Source: a virus. From it: a stretch of DNA of 36,930 nucleotides. The notes below the pieces were generated by a model. The model was not told the origin of the DNA and searched no databases. It saw nothing but the letters and a program-made list of their open reading frames with translations. The stretch covers positions 1 through 36,930 of the IMG/VR virus record IMGVR_UViG_3300047548_000189, one strand, 5' to 3'. The position numbers were made by a program, and so were the translations under genes. The number at the start of each line of letters is the position of its first letter. Within the stretch, counting starts at the first letter, position 1. This document shows positions 15,702-27,469 of this stretch, piece after piece.

Positions 15702-16865
15702 TTACTCCTTGTACTTGGTGTGGCGTTGCTGTTCTACGGCCGCAACGGCTGCCTTTATTTTTTTCTGTTCCTCGGTCAGCTTCGTCGTCGTGTTCTTGTA
15801 AACAATGTCGAGGTCGTCAGTGAGGTCGGCGACAGTGAAGGGCTTCGAGCTAGTCACCTTGGCTCCGAGGAAGTGTTCTTTGATCTCGTCGATGACCTTG
15901 TCGCCAACGAGCGACGGCAAAGTGACGGCAAGCTCATGGCTATTCCAGCCGTAAGGGCTGTTCTTAAACTTCGTGCCGTCAGCCTTCTCGTACTCGACCC
16001 AGTTCTCGCCGCCGTCAATCGGTTTGGCGTAAGGAATCAGCGGCGGGATATACAGGTGAGATACACAGCCGCGCTGGTCTTTGATTTCGTTGCGTTGTTG
16101 GCCGCATGTCCAAGTTCCTTCGGCGGACGGCGACGAGTGAGCACAGGTGCGGCAATTAACGTCAGCGATCTGATCTTGATGGCATAGGCTGTAGTGGTCG
16201 CACCACTTGCACTCGTACCAGCTTGGATCCTCTGACAGTCGCTGCGGTGGCGACGTCATCTCGAGCAGCATCTTTGCGCGGTCGAGGTGCTGCTCAAAGC
16301 AGTCTTTGTCGAAGTGAACCCACTCCGAATAAATCTCGTCGTTATCTTTGTTCTGCGCCAGATACATGGCTCGCTCGATGTCGAGCAGCCCCATGTACAT
16401 CTGCATCTGAACGTAATGCTGAAACTTAGCGGCCCGCACGCCCTCTTTCTGGAGCTTGGCGTAGCTCTTGTTGTTATGTGTTTTGCACTCAATGACAGCC
16501 CACGACTTAGGGGCTTCCACAAAGCCGCGTCCAATGCCGTCAACGCTTCCGGCAAGATGCCCGTCGTGCGCACTGACGGCGATTTGTTTATTCGATTCAC
16601 CGTCTGTTACGAAAATCTCAACACCAATGTCGCGCAAATCTTGAATGAGGCGCTCCTCTTCACGCTGCCCGGTGTTAAATACTCTGAGAATGCGGCCGGG
16701 GAATGCCGGTGCTTTTGCCCAGCGCCATGACAGCCAGATGTGCCGATCGCATGGGTGGCCAATAAGCGAGCAGCCCATGTGCGGGCGGTGCGGCGTATTG
16801 CGTCTATCCCAAATCTTGATGATCTCTTTAGCGGTGCTCTTTGTTGGTTCTGGTAATGCTGTCAT
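15702..16865 (-). CDS. RecB/Cas4-like PD-(D/E)XK exonuclease with Cys clusters
   Basis: This encodes 387 residues. The nuclease core is visible as SVDGIG (Asp109), IECK (Glu126, Lys128) and the following KFQHYVQMQMYM helix (147-158), typical of the RecB/Cas4/lambda-exonuclease group. Cys39 together with Cys219, Cys222 and Cys228 resembles the iron-sulfur cluster arrangement of Cas4/AddB-type nucleases. A second set (Cys238, Cys241, Cys254, Cys267) may bind another metal. It likely resects DNA for the Sak4-like recombination system. An unusual 200-base leader with tandem repeats precedes it. Confidence 0.85.
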   Translation of the reverse strand: MTALPEPTKSTAKEIIKIWDRRNTPHRPHMGCSLIGHPCDRHIWLSWRWAKAPAFPGRILRVFNTGQREEERLIQDLRDIGVEIFVTDGESNKQIAVSAHDGHLAGSVDGIGRGFVEAPKSWAVIECKTHNNKSYAKLQKEGVRAAKFQHYVQMQMYMGLLDIERAMYLAQNKDNDEIYSEWVHFDKDCFEQHLDRAKMLLEMTSPPQRLSEDPSWYECKWCDHYSLCHQDQIADVNCRTCAHSSPSAEGTWTCGQQRNEIKDQRGCVSHLYIPPLIPYAKPIDGGENWVEYEKADGTKFKNSPYGWNSHELAVTLPSLVGDKVIDEIKEHFLGAKVTSSKPFTVADLTDDLDIVYKNTTTKLTEEQKKIKAAVAAVEQQRHTKYKE

Positions 16866-17737: not shown

Positions 17738-18487
17738 CTACACTGTATGCAAAGCAGAAAGCTGGTCAGCAATTGCGCTCCACTCCAGAGCGCAGTCTTG
17801 CAATCCAAAACGGTTGCCGCTGGGGTATGCGGGGTGCGCTTCTAGGTGAAGCACACGCTCGCCGGTCTTGTTCGCCTTGACCTCTTTGTTACCGAAGCCG
17901 GCGTCTGTCTTGCGCAGAGTGATCCGGTGAGCAGCGAAGCCAACGATGTCGGCCCACTCCTCCACAAGAGCGGATGCCTTGCTGTGCATCTTCAGCACAT
18001 AGGCGTCGTAGCCTTCATGCGTCGGCGACTCGATGTGCTGCTGCTTAACGTGGCAGATCAGGATGACTGCCATGCCCCGCTCCCGGCGCAAGGCCTCGAA
18101 GCCATCAAGCAAGTTCTTCCACTCTGCGGCGGCGGCAACATACCCTTTGCCGTAGCCCGGGGTCTCGATGTCCTTCCAGCCATTCTGGCGGCAGACATAC
18201 TGATGAACAAGCGGTTCTGTCCAGTCGAGCGAGTCGAGAAAGACGGTGTTGAAGTCGTGCTCTTCAGTAAGCAGGGTTTGGATGGCGGCGTAGACGTCTT
18301 CCAGAGTGGTGGCGAGCGGGAAGGCTTGTGCATCTACGCCGGCCAAGCCGTCTTCAGTGATGATGCCAACTGAGTTCGGGGCGCAAGCGGCAAGCGTGGA
18401 CTTGCCGATCTTTGGCTCGCCAGCCAAGAGGATCTTGGGAGCCTCAAGGCGGCGAGTCTTGCTGATTGAGGTTAAGTCAAATGCCAT
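17738..18487 (-). CDS. Sak4-like phage recombination ATPase
   Basis: This encodes 249 residues with a RecA-like core: Walker A GEPKIGKS (residues 23-30), Walker B hydrophobics ending in Asp85 (TVFLDSLDW), and a later ILICHVKQQ motif. This matches the phage AAA_24/Sak4 group of single-strand annealing or strand-exchange ATPases. Together with the DUF669 and exonuclease genes it forms a complete recombination set. It lies 3 bases after the upstream gene. Confidence 0.86.
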   Translation of the reverse strand: MAFDLTSISKTRRLEAPKILLAGEPKIGKSTLAACAPNSVGIITEDGLAGVDAQAFPLATTLEDVYAAIQTLLTEEHDFNTVFLDSLDWTEPLVHQYVCRQNGWKDIETPGYGKGYVAAAAEWKNLLDGFEALRRERGMAVILICHVKQQHIESPTHEGYDAYVLKMHSKASALVEEWADIVGFAAHRITLRKTDAGFGNKEVKANKTGERVLHLEAHPAYPSGNRFGLQDCALEWSAIADQLSALHTV

Positions 18488-20728: not shown

Positions 20729-21328
20729 TCAGAACGGCTTGATCCATAGGATTGGCGAGGCCCAGTCAATGCCGGCGTTTTCCACAATCCGGGGCTTGGT
20801 GGCGGTTATGACAAGGTTGTAGGTTCCCTTCTTGTAGCCCTTCTTGATCACCCCGGTCACGACGCCATTGCCGTCAATCTGACAGGCGCAGGCGCGGTCG
20901 AGCATCCGATCCGGTTCGACATGGTCGCCCGAGATGATCATTACCCAGCCGTCATGCGGGCTGGCGTGGTCGCGTACTTGAACAGCATAGGAGCCGCCCG
21001 GTACGTCGGCCGGGGCTTCAATAAACTCAGGCTCACCGGCGGGGATCTCTTCGATCGTGGCCTCTGGCGATAGGTAGCCGGTTAGCCGTACCTTGCGGAC
21101 GTCATCGCGGACGTCCACCCCTGCCCTGCGCAGGATCTCGGTGACGGGTACGGCAAGGAGCGCGGCGATCTGCTGCGCCTCAGTGGCGGTCATCTTTCGA
21201 TCGCCACGGAGCATTAAGGTTACGGCGGCTGGATCTACATTAAGGTGCTTTGCCAGCTTGCGCTGGGACATCTTGATGTCGCCAAGACGGTCTCGAAACC
21301 AGTCTGTGTCGACTATTGGTGTTGCCAT
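20729..21328 (-). CDS. cI: CI-type repressor with degenerate S24 domain
   Basis: This encodes 199 residues from ATG 21328; GGAGAAG precedes it, while the upstream in-frame ATG 21388 adds a basic non-conserved stretch. Residues 10-70 are a helix-turn-helix (SQRKLAKHLNVDPAAVTLML). Residues about 80-199 align by pattern to the LexA/CI S24 domain and end in the usual SPILWIKP. However, the catalytic Ser position (VRGDSM-type) reads VRDHAS with His121, the Lys position (VKRL-type) reads GVIKK with Gly159, and the GYVGAG-type cleavage site reads GYLSPE. Self-cleavage on SOS induction is therefore doubtful. It is divergent from the cro-like gene. Confidence 0.85.
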   Translation of the reverse strand: MATPIVDTDWFRDRLGDIKMSQRKLAKHLNVDPAAVTLMLRGDRKMTATEAQQIAALLAVPVTEILRRAGVDVRDDVRKVRLTGYLSPEATIEEIPAGEPEFIEAPADVPGGSYAVQVRDHASPHDGWVMIISGDHVEPDRMLDRACACQIDGNGVVTGVIKKGYKKGTYNLVITATKPRIVENAGIDWASPILWIKPF

Positions 21329-21392
21329 ATTTTTGCTTCTCCGGTTCTTGTTTGGGTTCGTTGTGCGTTTGTGTTTAGGTTTTCTCATGTCT

Positions 21393-21453: not shown

Positions 21454-21687
21454 ATGCGTGAAAATAATTCAATCAAACCCGCAGACTATGTGATCTCGAG
21501 CTTCGGCTCCGGGTCAGAAGTTGCCCGCGTACTGGGCGTCGATAAGTCGACCGTTTCCCGTTGGAAACTACCGAAGGAGCGCAAGGGAACTAACGGCAAC
21601 ATTCCCCAGAAGTATTGGGTTGCCCTGCTCTCCGAGGCGCAGACTCGAAGCATTCGCTTGACGATTAGCGACCTCGCAGGGTTGTGA
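21454..21687 (+). CDS. Cro-like helix-turn-helix protein
   Basis: This encodes 77 residues. ISSFGSGSEVARVLGVDKSTVSRWKLPKERKGTNG contains a helix-turn-helix followed by a short basic loop; the YWVALLSEAQTRSIRLTISDL ending is seen in small phage regulators of the Cro/YdaS-like group (also called the carph-isopro domain). It is the first gene rightward from the switch, facing cI, and is probably the lytic repressor of cI. No strong Shine-Dalgarno precedes ATG 21454. Confidence 0.83.
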   Translation: MRENNSIKPADYVISSFGSGSEVARVLGVDKSTVSRWKLPKERKGTNGNIPQKYWVALLSEAQTRSIRLTISDLAGL

Positions 21688-21815: not shown

Positions 21816-23795
21816 ATGTTGAATTACCTCACCACCACCACTGCCGACGAAGATCAGGACGTAAACATCAGGTTTTCGATCGGCAAGAACAGGTTTGACG
21901 CGAACCCAAAAACCCTAGAAGTTGGCACGTTTACAGAGTTTCAAGACAAGGTACTGACCACCAGATCGGCCATCAAAGGCCTGTTCTACGTCGCGGCATC
22001 CTTTGGGGATGGTCGCCGGTCGCGGGACAGCGCTGAGCCAACATGCTTTCTGTGCTTCGACTTCGATGGCATCCCCGGCGCGGACGCATTCGCCGAGCTC
22101 TGCATGTACCTGAGCGCCTACCGAGGATTTGGCTACACCACGGCCAGCCACACGCCGGAAGCGCCTCGAGCCCGGGCCATCCTAGCCACCGACCGGGAGA
22201 TGACCCGCGAGGAGCGCATGCGGGTGAGCCAATACCTTGAGCAGTGCATCGCCATGAAGGTCAAAGGCATCAAGTTCGACGCCAGCGTATACCGCCCAGA
22301 GCAGCCCTGCTTCACCCCAGTATTCGAGAGCCAGACCTTCTGCTGGGACGGCGAGCCGGTCAACGTCGACGCCATCCTCACCTTTGCGCCCAAGCTCAAG
22401 GAGGAAGGCCCGACCGCGGCAGAGAACCTGATCGTGCTGTCGACCAACGACCCGATTCTGAATGCCCTGCGCAGCCAAGGCCTGATTAAGCGTGACTTGG
22501 GTGCTGGGAAATTCGCAATACGTTGTCCGTGCGCCAATGAACATAGCGGCCCATCGCCCTCAGAGACCACCACGACCTACTCCCTGCCTCATACCAATGG
22601 CTTCGCCACGGGAAACTTTAGCTGCCTGCATGCCCACTGTGCGGAGCGTCCACAGGCCGAGTTCATTGAGGCGCTTGGCCTAAACGCCAAACAGGCCAAG
22701 GCCGAGCAGACAAAGGTCGAGGTGGATCACAGCGCCCTGATCGAGCGGGCGGCAACAAAGCTGGAAGCTGAGAGAGTCGCCGAAACCGAGCTCCGTAAGC
22801 AGAAGTTTAAGTTTCTGACCCCGGGGCAACTAGTCAAGCAGCAGCGCGTCGGTTGGCGCGTGCTTGATGTGATCCCAAAAAAAGGCCTTGTCGTTATGTG
22901 GGGCGCTCCCGGCTCCGGCAAGAGCTTCGCAGCCTTCGACATAGGGGCGAGCATCGCCCGTGGCATCAAATACCACGGCAAGCGCACAAAACAGGGCTTG
23001 GTGCTCATCATCGCGGCCGAGGGTGATCTGACATCCAGAACCATGGCCTACATGAACGAGCACGGCCTAAAGGATGGCGAGCTCGACAACCTGCTGGTCA
23101 TGCAGCGCTCAGTGAACATGCTCGACCGTGACGCGGACATGCTGGATCTTCTGGAGACGATCAACGAGATTGTCGACAGCACCGGCAAGGAGCTTGCGCT
23201 GTTGGTAGTCGATACGCTGAACCGGGTCATGCCCGGGGGCAACGAGAACGCCTCCGAGGACATGGGCGCGGTCATCAGCAACGCCAAGCTCATCGAGGAC
23301 GCCTTCAAGTGCGCCGTGATGTTCGTGCATCACTCAGGCAAGGACGAAACCAAGGGCTCGCGTGGCCATAGCAGCCTCAAGGGCGCGATGGACGCCGAGA
23401 TCTCGATCATTCGCAACGAGGACATCCGCACCTTCCGCATCGAGAAGCAGAAGGAAGGCATGGACTACTACGACCTGTTCAACTTCAAGCTGAAGACTGT
23501 GGATCTGGGCGCTATGCGTGACTTCGACGAGGATGCAGAGCTCCACGAGCGCCTGACCAGTTGCGTCATCGAGCACACGACTGAAGTGCCGGCCAAGCGT
23601 GAGGTGCAGAACAAGAACAGCGGTTTAATGCAGGCCGCCCTGCTCGCCTCTGGATCGAACAGCAAGGAAGTTGTGCGGCTGAAGTATTACGAGCTTCACA
23701 CAGGCAGCGCTGAAGCGAAGAAAAAAGCATTCCAAAGAGACTGGGCGAAGTACATGAATGACGTCTGTCGGAGCGCTTCTGACGGGGACATTTAG
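21816..23795 (+). CDS. Primase-helicase fusion (AEP-like primase plus RepA/AAA_25 helicase)
   Basis: This encodes 659 residues. The N-terminal domain (about 1-210) has the archaeo-eukaryotic primase pattern: FDFD with Asp82 and Asp84, then TASHTPEAPRARAIL. Residues about 245-285 carry Cys and His residues of a possible zinc site. The C-terminal domain (340-560) is a RepA/RegA-type helicase: Walker A GAPGSGKS (363-370), Walker B ending Asp466, and HHSGKDETKGSRGHSSLKGA. It would prime and unwind phage DNA. The first GGGACA repeat of the candidate origin lies inside its last codons. Confidence 0.9.
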   Translation: MLNYLTTTTADEDQDVNIRFSIGKNRFDANPKTLEVGTFTEFQDKVLTTRSAIKGLFYVAASFGDGRRSRDSAEPTCFLCFDFDGIPGADAFAELCMYLSAYRGFGYTTASHTPEAPRARAILATDREMTREERMRVSQYLEQCIAMKVKGIKFDASVYRPEQPCFTPVFESQTFCWDGEPVNVDAILTFAPKLKEEGPTAAENLIVLSTNDPILNALRSQGLIKRDLGAGKFAIRCPCANEHSGPSPSETTTTYSLPHTNGFATGNFSCLHAHCAERPQAEFIEALGLNAKQAKAEQTKVEVDHSALIERAATKLEAERVAETELRKQKFKFLTPGQLVKQQRVGWRVLDVIPKKGLVVMWGAPGSGKSFAAFDIGASIARGIKYHGKRTKQGLVLIIAAEGDLTSRTMAYMNEHGLKDGELDNLLVMQRSVNMLDRDADMLDLLETINEIVDSTGKELALLVVDTLNRVMPGGNENASEDMGAVISNAKLIEDAFKCAVMFVHHSGKDETKGSRGHSSLKGAMDAEISIIRNEDIRTFRIEKQKEGMDYYDLFNFKLKTVDLGAMRDFDEDAELHERLTSCVIEHTTEVPAKREVQNKNSGLMQAALLASGSNSKEVVRLKYYELHTGSAEAKKKAFQRDWAKYMNDVCRSASDGDI

Positions 23796-23924
23796 GGGGA
23801 CATTTGATGCGGGACATACGGGACATTTCGGGACAAACGGGACATCGGTGTCCCTGCTGTAGCGGGACAAACGGGACATTTGCTTATAAGAGCAATGTCC
23901 TGTCCCGCTGCGAGCACCTGTCCC
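23785..23924. repeat. GGGACA repeat array, candidate replication origin
   Basis: GGGACA starts at 23785, 23797, 23811, 23820, 23830, 23839, 23864 and 23873. The inverse TGTCCC starts at 23849, 23901 and 23919. Several neighbours are 9-10 bp apart, about one helical turn. The array begins in the last codons of the primase-helicase gene and fills the gap to the next gene. Within it, 23861-23884 and 23891-23909 form a long inverted repeat around TATAAG. Iteron-like spacing next to a replication initiator suggests an origin. Confidence 0.68.
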
Positions 23925-23944: not shown

Positions 23945-24469
23945 GTGATTGATTTGAAAAAAACAAGCGAGATTGAAGTTGAAGAGTCAGCGTTGCCCGT
24001 GGAAAGGGAGGCCAAGGGAAATCCGAACTGGAAGCCGGGGATCTCTGCAAATCCCAACGGAAGGCCGAAGGGCGTGCCGAACAAGATCACGCGCTCGATC
24101 CGCGAAGCCATCCTTGCAGCCACTCAGCCCGGTGAATGCCATCCAGAAGGCCTGCAAGGCTGGCTGCGCGAGCGTGCGCAAGGCGGCATAGAAGACCGCA
24201 AGATATTCGGCGCAATGGTTTCGCGTGCGCTGCCGCTTGAGGTGACCGGGGCAGACGGCGGGCCGATCAAGATCGATCTCGGCTGGCTGAGTCAACGGCG
24301 CATCGGATACGGCGACGTCATCGACGTCATCCCCGAAGTCACACATCCGGCACAAAACCCCGCAAACCCTTTGCTGGAGCGGGGATCAACGGATTATCAA
24401 TCCGTCGAGCCGATCGCCGGCCGGTCGGCGGCAGGGTCAGACACCGACAGCGAGGGAGGCGAGGCATGA
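23945..24469 (+). CDS. DUF5681-like protein, possible small terminase subunit
   Basis: This encodes 174 residues from GTG 23945, with AGGAGG at 23934-23939. The N-terminal KGNPNWKPGISANPNGRPKG (residues 24-43) is the hallmark of DUF5681, a phage and prophage family often found before large terminase subunits. A helical region follows (44-95); the last 60 residues are low-complexity and acidic. A packaging recognition role is plausible, but four genes separate it from the large terminase gene. Confidence 0.72.
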   Translation: MIDLKKTSEIEVEESALPVEREAKGNPNWKPGISANPNGRPKGVPNKITRSIREAILAATQPGECHPEGLQGWLRERAQGGIEDRKIFGAMVSRALPLEVTGADGGPIKIDLGWLSQRRIGYGDVIDVIPEVTHPAQNPANPLLERGSTDYQSVEPIAGRSAAGSDTDSEGGEA

Positions 24470-25006: not shown

Positions 25007-25596
25007 ACGACCAACAACGAGCAGCCATGCAGATGGCGTTGAGAGATTTAGAACTAATTTGGGAGGACAACCGTCCGTCAATCACCGCCCTGCGTGAAGC
25101 ATTGGCGCAGCCGCAAGGTGAGTGGGTTGATTTGACGGATGATGAAATTGAGGAAGTGTGTGTCGGTCTTTGGGCAGGCTATTGGAGTTATAGCCGGTGG
25201 ATACCATTGGCACAAACATTCATCGCCAAATTCAAAGAGAAGAACACCCCGCCAGTTGTGCCGCAAGAGCCGGTGGCTTGGAGCGACGCAGCCTTACTGT
25301 CTCTTATGAATAGCGTTGGTGATGGCCCGTACGGGGAAGAAGATATTGCTGTGACGCGGCGCTTTATGGAATACGCGGAACAAATTAGGCCAGAACTTAT
25401 CACCACCCCGCCATCCGTTGAAGCCGCAATAGAGGCAACAAAAGAGAAAGCAGCGAAGGTGTTGGGCGAGGTAAGCCTGACTCAAGATGAACTGCAAAGC
25501 ATTGAGTCTGCGTGTTCAACCTCAACTGAGTGCTATCGAGTTGTTGCAAAGGCTTTGAAAGATAAACACGCCGCAGCCATAAGGAGCATGAAGTGA
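25003..25596 (+). CDS. Accessory protein of lower GC, unknown function
   Basis: This encodes 197 residues. An N-terminal helical part resembles phage proteins with LREAL.QP.GEWVDLTDDEI segments, joined by Pro-rich linkers (TPPVVPQEPVAW, TTPPSVEAA) to two further helical modules. Two 60-base lines that I counted in this gene are about 50% GC, against about 66% in one line of the next gene, so it looks recently acquired. It overlaps both neighbours by 4 bases, meaning the insertion kept coupling intact. Confidence 0.75.
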   Translation: MNDQQRAAMQMALRDLELIWEDNRPSITALREALAQPQGEWVDLTDDEIEEVCVGLWAGYWSYSRWIPLAQTFIAKFKEKNTPPVVPQEPVAWSDAALLSLMNSVGDGPYGEEDIAVTRRFMEYAEQIRPELITTPPSVEAAIEATKEKAAKVLGEVSLTQDELQSIESACSTSTECYRVVAKALKDKHAAAIRSMK

Positions 25597-26120
25597 AGCG
25601 CTACCTCACCTTCTCGATCCCGCCGGGCGTCTGCGACGAGATCGTCAAGGTGGCGCGTGAGCACGACAGCATGGACGCCAGGCTGACCGGCGCTGACCCC
25701 TATGTCGATCATGTTGCCCGCAAGACCGAAGTCGTCTGGCTGCCCCATGGCTGGTACGACGGCATCATGACCGAGATCGGCATGTCGGCGAACCTCGAGT
25801 TCGGCTTCGACATCTCCGACGGCGAGGACATCCAGGTCGGCTGGTACGAAGAGGGAGGGCACTACGGCTTCCATTCCGACGTCGACCCGTACAACACGAC
25901 CCGCGGCTACCACCGCAAGGTGACGATCGTTCTCTGCCTTGAGGACGAGTACGAGGGCGGCGAGCTTGAGTTCAACTTTGGCAAGGAAAACGCCACCCTC
26001 AAGCTGAAAAAGGGCGAGGCCGTTGCTTTCCCGTCCTGGCTGCTGCACAAGGTTCACCCGGTGACGAGTGGCACCCGGGCGACTGCGGTGAAGTGGCTCA
26101 CCGGCCCGTTCTGGAGATAA
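25593..26120 (+). CDS. 2-oxoglutarate/Fe(II)-dependent dioxygenase
   Basis: This encodes 175 residues from GTG 25593, with AAGGAG upstream and a 4-base overlap. The iron triad is visible as His94-x-Asp96 (YGFHSDVD) and a distal His152 in PSWLLHKVHPV, with Arg162 of SGTRATAVKW as the 2-oxoglutarate-binding residue. The length fits prolyl-4-hydroxylase/PKHD-type phage oxygenases. The substrate is unknown: phage protein, host protein or DNA base are all possible. It stands next to the large terminase gene. Confidence 0.88.
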   Translation: MKRYLTFSIPPGVCDEIVKVAREHDSMDARLTGADPYVDHVARKTEVVWLPHGWYDGIMTEIGMSANLEFGFDISDGEDIQVGWYEEGGHYGFHSDVDPYNTTRGYHRKVTIVLCLEDEYEGGELEFNFGKENATLKLKKGEAVAFPSWLLHKVHPVTSGTRATAVKWLTGPFWR

Positions 26121-26122
26121 CG

Positions 26123-27469
26123 ATGAAGCTGACCGAATACCGCCCGCGCGACTACTTTCTGCCCCTGCACGAGCGCGACAAGCGCTGGGCCGTGGTGGTT
26201 GCTCACCGCCGAGCCGGAAAAACCGTGGCCATGTGCGTCGAGCTTGTCTTGGCCGCGCTCGAATGTCCGCACCCGCGCCCGCAGGTCTTCTACTTCGCGC
26301 CGTTCCGCGAGCAGGCCAAGCGCATCGCCTGGCAGTACCTCAAAGAGCTCACGCGCGACATCCAGACCAGGAAGCCGAACGAGTCAGAGCTAAAGATCAC
26401 CATCCACAACCACCGCGGGGACGAGAGCACGATCTTCGTGATGGGCGGCGACAACCCCGATTCGGCCCGCGGTCTGTACGCCGACGCGGCCGTGATCGAT
26501 GAAGTCGGCGACTGCCGGCCGTCGCTCTGGTATTCCGTCATCCGTCCGGCGCTTTCTGACCGTCGCGGCTGGTGCATCTTCGCCGGCACGCCGAAGGGCA
26601 AGAATCTGTTCTGGAATCTGAAGGAAGAGGCCCGGCTCAACCCGAACAGCCACCTCCTGCTCGAGCTCCCGGTCACGAAAACGAACGTCTTGCACCCGGA
26701 GGAGCTCCGCGACGCCCAGGTGCAGATGACGGAAGACGCCTACTCGATCGAGTACCTGTGCTCATTCGAGGCCTCGATCCCCGGCGCCTTCTTTGCCCGC
26801 GAAGTCGGCAAGGCACGGGACGAAGGGCGCATCTCCAACTTCACCGCCGACCCCGAACTGCCGATCCACATCGTCGGCGACCTTGGCTTTACCGACTCGT
26901 GCAGCTGGTGGGTGTGGCAGGAAGGGCCGGAGGGCAACCGCGTGGTCGACTTCTACGAGGCCGATGGCCAGCCGATCAGCCACTACATCGACTGGATCAA
27001 GGGTCTGCCCGGCAAGCTCGGCCAGGTCTGGCTGCCGCACGACGCCCGGGCGAAGTCGCTGCAAACCGGCAAGTCGATGGTGGAGCAGTTCATCGCCGCC
27101 GGGATCACACCGCGCCTGGTGCCCGAGCTCAGTCTGCTCGACGGCATCGAAGCCGCCCGGCAGACGCTCGCCTATACATGGTTCAACGAAGAAAAGACAC
27201 GCGACGGTATCGACCACCTGGTCGGGTACTGCCGCGAATGGGACGAGCGCAGCCAGACCTACCGCAGCCGTCCGAAGCACGATCAACACTCTCACGCGGC
27301 AGATGCCTTCCGATATTTGGCTTTGGCTTCAACGCAGAGGATTTTCCCACGCATTGATAGAACCCCGACAGATGATGTAAAACCGCGAGAAGCACAAGGA
27401 GCGCACTACGCGTTTGCGCTCGATGACCTTTGGGATTGCGGCCCGCGGACAAGCAACAGGATCGGATAG
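26123..27469 (+). CDS. terL: Terminase large subunit
   Basis: This encodes 448 residues from ATG 26123; the frame opens at 26093 inside the previous gene. The ATPase domain has Walker A HRRAGKT (28-34) and Walker B VIDEV (Asp126, Glu127). The nuclease domain has Asp253 in VGDLGFTDS and a later HSHAADAFRYL Asp. The protein drives DNA into the prohead and cuts it. A length of about 450 fits the podovirus-type terminases. The portal gene follows after 2 bases. Confidence 0.94.
   Translation: MKLTEYRPRDYFLPLHERDKRWAVVVAHRRAGKTVAMCVELVLAALECPHPRPQVFYFAPFREQAKRIAWQYLKELTRDIQTRKPNESELKITIHNHRGDESTIFVMGGDNPDSARGLYADAAVIDEVGDCRPSLWYSVIRPALSDRRGWCIFAGTPKGKNLFWNLKEEARLNPNSHLLLELPVTKTNVLHPEELRDAQVQMTEDAYSIEYLCSFEASIPGAFFAREVGKARDEGRISNFTADPELPIHIVGDLGFTDSCSWWVWQEGPEGNRVVDFYEADGQPISHYIDWIKGLPGKLGQVWLPHDARAKSLQTGKSMVEQFIAAGITPRLVPELSLLDGIEAARQTLAYTWFNEEKTRDGIDHLVGYCREWDERSQTYRSRPKHDQHSHAADAFRYLALASTQRIFPRIDRTPTDDVKPREAQGAHYAFALDDLWDCGPRTSNRIG

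Follow-up and report, generated by a model that had tools for sequence, protein, structure and literature searches.

The SaPI Rep protein uses its C-terminal domain to recognise a short-iteron origin situated directly past its own gene, Cch2 of SCCmec has a C-terminal domain that in vitro binds its downstream site (PMC7581432), and plasmid replication can be driven by a PICI rep-ori (PMC6092414). In pRN1 the origin is the 3' stem-loop of the ORF904 gene (PMC4234260), and in RSF1010 the RepA helicase, iterons and priming hairpins occur together (PMC4234260, PMC4434180). Fusions of a primase, a RepA helicase and a C-terminal winged helix have moreover been catalogued, with the suggestion that the winged helix recognises origins (PMC5862659). 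For most temperate phages and integrated elements, origins are unknown. Here we analyse a 36,930-bp virus record (hereafter the window, meaning this whole stretch of DNA) in which a GGGACA array with an embedded hairpin adjoins the end of a replication helicase gene, and we conclude that this is very probably the start site of viral DNA copying, since many bacteria have viruses and mobile elements in which such repeats and hairpins recur, the repeat word changing and its place staying constant. A search of open-access papers found no earlier description of the hexamer, the hairpin tip or the helicase link, and this search, directed at GGGACA repeats in phages and at phage origins that combine iterons and stem-loops with a linked helicase, gave no prior report of the array. 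Nucleotide searches against named phages, run with a 6.5-kb region and with the array separately, gave no match, nor did a protein search with the helicase tail.

The repressor, Cro-like, helicase, DUF5681 and terminase genes of the window (Table 1) follow the layout of a temperate tailed phage. A 2OG-Fe(II) oxygenase gene (25593-26120; Pfam 3.4e-16) is also found between the DUF5681 and large terminase genes, and on the minus strand a Cas4-domain exonuclease gene (15702-16865; PHROG 4.9e-96) and an AAA_24 ATPase gene (17738-18487; Pfam 5.4e-44) form a pair that resembles a phage recombination module. The core of the helicase is an AAA_25 domain (residues 338-511; Pfam 2.6e-29). Compared with the PDB, its family profile finds RSF1010 RepA (1g8y, 1.5e-17), and Foldseek with the AF2 model returned RecA-fold proteins, the best target-normalised score being that of the same protein (1olo/1g8y, TMt 0.70), by which measures the enzyme is a RepA-type hexameric helicase. 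Among PHROG families, the N-terminal ~300 residues hit those of primases and helicase-primases; this primase-like part is poorly modelled by AF2, and a PDB sequence search with it returned no relative. At the other end of the protein, a three-helix domain (about residues 600-655) is predicted with pLDDT mostly 77-93, yet a Foldseek search with the isolated domain gave no significant match and Pfam found no HTH in the window's own helicase protein, whereas single tails elsewhere in the family score as HTH or winged-HTH. Because the tail is without a significant fold match and the HTH scores come from other members of the family, we infer, rather than read from its fold, that this domain binds the repeats or DNA in general.

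Table 1. Genes and sequence features at and around the GGGACA array (window coordinates)
Feature	Position	Strand	Details
Repressor gene	20729-21388	-	
Cro-like gene	21454-21687	+	
Replication helicase gene, 659 aa	21816-23795	+	Pfam, PHROG, profile, AF2 and Foldseek evidence
Codons of C-terminal three-helix domain, proposed to bind iterons	23613-23780	+	Helices H600-612, H617-627, H632-655
Left block, six direct GGGACA putative iterons	23785-23844	+	Spacing 12, 14, 9, 10, 9
Inverse putative iteron ending left block	23849-23854	-	Copy at same place after direct block recurs in relatives
Imperfect hairpin	23856-23915		DNA fold z -7.5; 42 distinct homologous hairpins; arm covariation
Hairpin left arm, GGGACA AAC GGGACA	23864, 23873		
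Hairpin tip, TTATAAG	about 23885-23890		
Hairpin right arm, TGTCC and TGTCCC	23896 (TGTCC), 23901 (TGTCCC)		
Outer inverse putative iteron past hairpin	23919-23924	-	Recurs in L004, L006, L007, L008
DUF5681 gene, start of packaging module, outside proposed origin	23945-24469	+	Pfam DUF5681 2.4e-6
Terminase TerL gene	26093-27469		

The preliminary description counted eight direct and three inverse copies of GGGACA within 140 bp, and we find exactly these, the direct copies on the plus strand at 23785, 23797, 23811, 23820, 23830, 23839, 23864 and 23873, and the inverse ones on the minus strand at 23849, 23901 and 23919; an additional inverse AGGACA, one mismatch away from the hexamer, occupies 23896-23901. 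With 11 copies in 140 bp (23785-23924) this is the strongest hexamer cluster across the whole window, and in 100 first-order Markov simulated sequences the maximum was 7 copies per cluster, with AAAAAA, so that 11 was never reached. The 9-10 bp separation described for several copies is confirmed by measured direct spacings of 12, 14, 9, 10 and 9 bp, followed by 9 bp inside the hairpin arm. The array had also been placed partly within the helicase gene, which is true of its first copy (23785-23790) alone: the reading frame stops at 23795 and the remaining copies all lie beyond it, making the array essentially intergenic. Conserved in-frame peptide repeats, which had been named as the finding that would undo an origin reading, are ruled out by the presence of copies on both strands past the stop codon.

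The embedded inverted repeat, originally described as carrying small bulges and a TATAAG loop, is a genuine DNA hairpin. Folded as single-stranded DNA, positions 23855-23915 reach -20.6 kcal/mol against -6.9 ± 1.8 for shuffled sequences (z -7.5), the opposite strand folds with z -6.5, and the structure features a 4-nt AAAC bulge in its left arm and a TTATAAG tip. Two sets of putative iterons are distinguished, outside and inside the hairpin, and the tip is the sole AT-rich stretch seen, with no separate AT-rich unwinding region found at the array. GC skew gave no origin signal and an Rfam search no match.

The association with the helicase gene was evaluated from both directions. A DNA-only scan of viral contigs and bacterial genomes with the pattern GGGACA n3 GGGACA n4 GGGACA, retaining arrays of at least six copies and removing redundancy, gave 102 non-redundant arrays among the matches listed; because the pattern itself fixes the 9- and 10-bp spacing, spacing in these loci is not independent evidence; the pattern made no demand for a hairpin or its tip, for inverse copies or for a link to a helicase. 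A RepA-type helicase reading frame is present in 59 of the 102 loci and within 300 bp of the array in 58, and in 57 of these 58 the array sits at the helicase 3' end (median gap 4 bp), with the other 43 arrays lacking a detected helicase within the retrieved surrounding DNA. When loci were taken solely by helicase protein similarity (47 non-redundant), a repeat cluster, defined as a hexamer present in at least five copies at -30 to +150 of the stop codon, was found in 32 (68%) versus 0.7% of 4839 same-contig control windows, and two apparent exceptions, L021 and L043, feature an eight-copy array about 1 kb downstream. Further neighbours of arrays are DUF3987 proteins, DnaB-N plus AAA_25 proteins and, in Bacteroidales elements, a helicase with a C-terminal HTH (Pfam HTH_23) beside a DUF6371 protein.

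Several loci depart from this arrangement. In one close relative (L004:5917-6204) a small open frame intervenes, leaving about 290 bp between helicase stop and array, the array being at the stop in the other close relatives. L123:2364-2617 packs 23 GGGACA copies in both orientations into 250 bp, with 47 copies over the 5.2-kb locus, where a RepA-type helicase was not found. Symmetric arrays, in which three TGTCCC and three GGGACA copies face each other across a short gap, occur in L171, L180, L194, L206, L221, L231, L257 and L270, and on several contigs of the single genomes JAIRLW, CAMYYB and NZ_JAQBOW; they belong to Bacteroidota and Planctomycetes genomes, show no RepA-type helicase in the retrieved DNA, and may mark either elements that escaped notice or a second role for the GGGACA word.

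The hairpin is likewise conserved. Forty-two distinct GGGACA hairpins share a common anatomy of two direct copies, a short stem, a tip and two inverse copies, and their inner stems differ in sequence yet pair: in strict register, 52% of arm positions form Watson-Crick pairs compared to 27 ± 3.6% when arms are swapped between loci (maximum 40% in 2,000 shuffles). The hairpin is kept by pairing and not by sequence. Its tip conforms to CTW(1-4)AG in 31 of the 42 versus 2.1 expected and at most 7 in 1,000 shuffles, and a hairpin score of at least 8 is reached in 82% of 49 loci against 6.8% of controls, a difference to which the inverted iterons by themselves contribute. This tip also occurs where the repeat word differs or hardly repeats, as with CCCTTTAGGG in CRP-821, CCCCTTTAGGGG in Burkholderia phage BcepGomr and CCCCCTTTAGGGGG in a Polaromonas plasmid. 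Because the hairpin accompanies fused Prim-Pol primases, separate TOPRIM genes and helicases of only 331-440 residues, it probably does not act as the signal of any single primase family; in particular, recognition specific to archaeo-eukaryotic (AEP) primases is doubtful, since similar hairpins serve elements with a TOPRIM-type primase, and a role as helicase entry or melting site is at least as likely as one in priming.

Between families the repeat word itself is replaced. Protein-selected loci carry GGGACA, GTGACA (CGTGACA), GTCTACA, TCCGAA, GGGAAA, GGACAAATGG, TGGACA, CGTTGC or CGTAACG, with GTATAA in Roseobacter phage CRP-821, GCGGAA in Caenibius plasmid p1 and, just past the helicase gene in each case, GTGCGGCA in Klebsiella pKp_Goe_795-4 (L292) and AAAGTGAGG in E. 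coli p1RM9154-C1 (L291). The latter two are satellite-like elements with a RepA-family helicase and a capsid gene, plus an AlpA-type regulator in L291, and have in common CTGTATACA between inverted iterons in place of the CTWWAG tip. A clean word switch is seen in one close group, L004, L006 and L008 versus L007: every array copy is GGGACA in L006 and GTGACA in L007, and the two helicases differ in 9 columns over the first 605 of their alignment and in 20 over the last 75, with NAEAKRKAFNRDWGKYM replaced by NAEAKRQAFNRDWRRYM inside the final helix of the tail. This pattern, a single clean case, looks as it would if a reading domain had co-evolved with the sites it reads; when word change was compared with tail divergence over many pairs, fully different words were met in one close pair only, L007/L008.

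These data bear on the strongest of the competing explanations, namely that the array is an origin whose iterons are read by another protein, be it a host factor or a separate phage initiator, with the helicase merely recruited. In RSF1010 a separate protein, RepC, does read the iterons (PMC4234260), and the C-terminal domain here has no recognised DNA-binding fold. The helicase gene, however, is the one constant neighbour of the array, its tail and the repeat word change together, and some members of its family feature HTH tails, while a host initiator is argued against by the use of one and the same hexamer in elements of many phyla. We thus regard a different reader as unlikely and favour the helicase itself.

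A packaging function, as a cos/pac or small-terminase binding site, is considerably less probable. The array does separate the replication module from the packaging genes, with the DUF5681 gene directly next and TerL further downstream, and in several relatives terminase genes follow at 0.6-1.1 kb; nevertheless, across relatives the site is tied to the helicase 3' end rather than to a terminase, and the downstream genes vary (HNH, Sf6-type TerS, unknowns). That the array goes with the helicase extends to Bacteroidales loci that encode an integrase and an excisionase-like HTH protein, and to bacterial plasmid records, in none of which a terminase adjoins it, which disfavours packaging. We give equally little credence to a transcriptional element, either a repressor/Cro operator or a terminator between the helicase and packaging genes: a hairpin just past a stop codon and many potential binding sites would suit such roles, but promoter and terminator features are absent, with no match to either in the array and no T-run past the hairpin. 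GGGACA is also not enriched near the CI/Cro genes of the window, and the array stands behind helicases in elements with unrelated regulators. Finally, an RNA element titrating CsrA/RsmA through the GGA within GGGACA can be dismissed, as copies occupy both strands, Rfam gave no match and the GGA core is lost in the GTGACA, GTCTACA and GTATAA arrays of sister families.

We thus propose that the array is likely a phage replication origin that combines iterons read by the helicase C-terminal domain with a melting or priming hairpin. An origin or primosome-assembly site next to a replication protein was also the initial suggestion, and the helicase linkage, hairpin covariation and changing repeat word all speak for it. 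In such a scheme the GGGACA copies would serve as iterons, that is, short repeated initiator-binding sites, to which the helicase would bind via its three-helix domain, leading to assembly of the RepA-type hexamer at the end of its own gene. Either the helicase or superhelical tension could then open the palindrome that holds the second iteron pair and the TTATAAG tip, and the opened hairpin would be where the protein's own primase-like N-terminal part enters and/or primes, with synthesis begun by this primase part or by an adjacent primase.

More broadly, we lean slightly toward the view that RepA-type (AAA_25) helicases, whether encoded by phages, satellites or integrative elements, constitute one very widespread class of self-recruiting initiators, whose origin just past their own gene would combine iterons with a covarying hairpin, its tip almost universally CTWWAG-like, the repeat word being read by a fast-evolving C-terminal domain and GGGACA being dominant across many bacterial phyla. 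If true, inspection of the first ~200 bp past a RepA-type helicase gene would suffice to find the origin of whichever element carries it, and elements that occupy one cell without being related might use the same origins or compete for them. A direct test of which helicase acts on which origin would also come within reach, L006 and L007 being a natural pair in which the helicase cores are nearly identical, the tails have diverged and each repeat differs by one base. Incompatibility between origins could then be studied, as could satellites or origin-directed nucleases that take advantage of such sites, as reported for PLE (PMC8263062).

Of the described systems, SaPI/PICI elements and SCCmec Cch2 share with the present locus multiple short iterons in an origin, here a proposed one, directly 3' of the initiator helicase gene (PMC7581432, PMC6092414), a fused or adjacent primase and a repeat sequence that varies between elements; in SaPI/PICI the C-terminal domain reads the origin, as proposed here from a tail that changes with the word in one close group. 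Their helicases, however, are of the DUF927, D5/Primase_Cterm or VirE kinds rather than RecA-type RepA (AAA_25), and whereas PICI iterons flank an AT-rich region, the second set here is within a covarying hairpin with a CTWWAG-like tip. The oriV of RSF1010 (IncQ) offers a homologous RepA-type hexameric helicase, iterons and one or more hairpins, for which a priming role is established there, but distributes RepA, the RepB' primase and the iteron reader RepC over separate proteins where a single polypeptide unites primase-like part, helicase and tail here, and it features ssi hairpins, one per strand, in contrast to 6-bp iteron cores about 9-14 bp apart.

In pRN1, ORF904 is similarly a primase-helicase-DNA-binding protein, and immediately 3' of its gene comes a stem-loop of conserved structure that is required in that plasmid (PMC4234260). 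It differs in its SF3 helicase and in the lack of iterons, compared to a RepA-type helicase, iterons and a smaller hairpin in our case. The phage P4 alpha protein has a helicase of another family than the RepA type and a TOPRIM primase. It is nonetheless a comparable multifunctional primase-helicase, with a winged-helix domain that binds the origin repeats (PMC4234260). The array is accordingly set apart from the SaPI type by its helicase family and from the pRN1 type by its iterons, and by analogy it would work like the SaPI/SCCmec Rep-ori, P4 and pRN1 systems, but with a RecA-type helicase.
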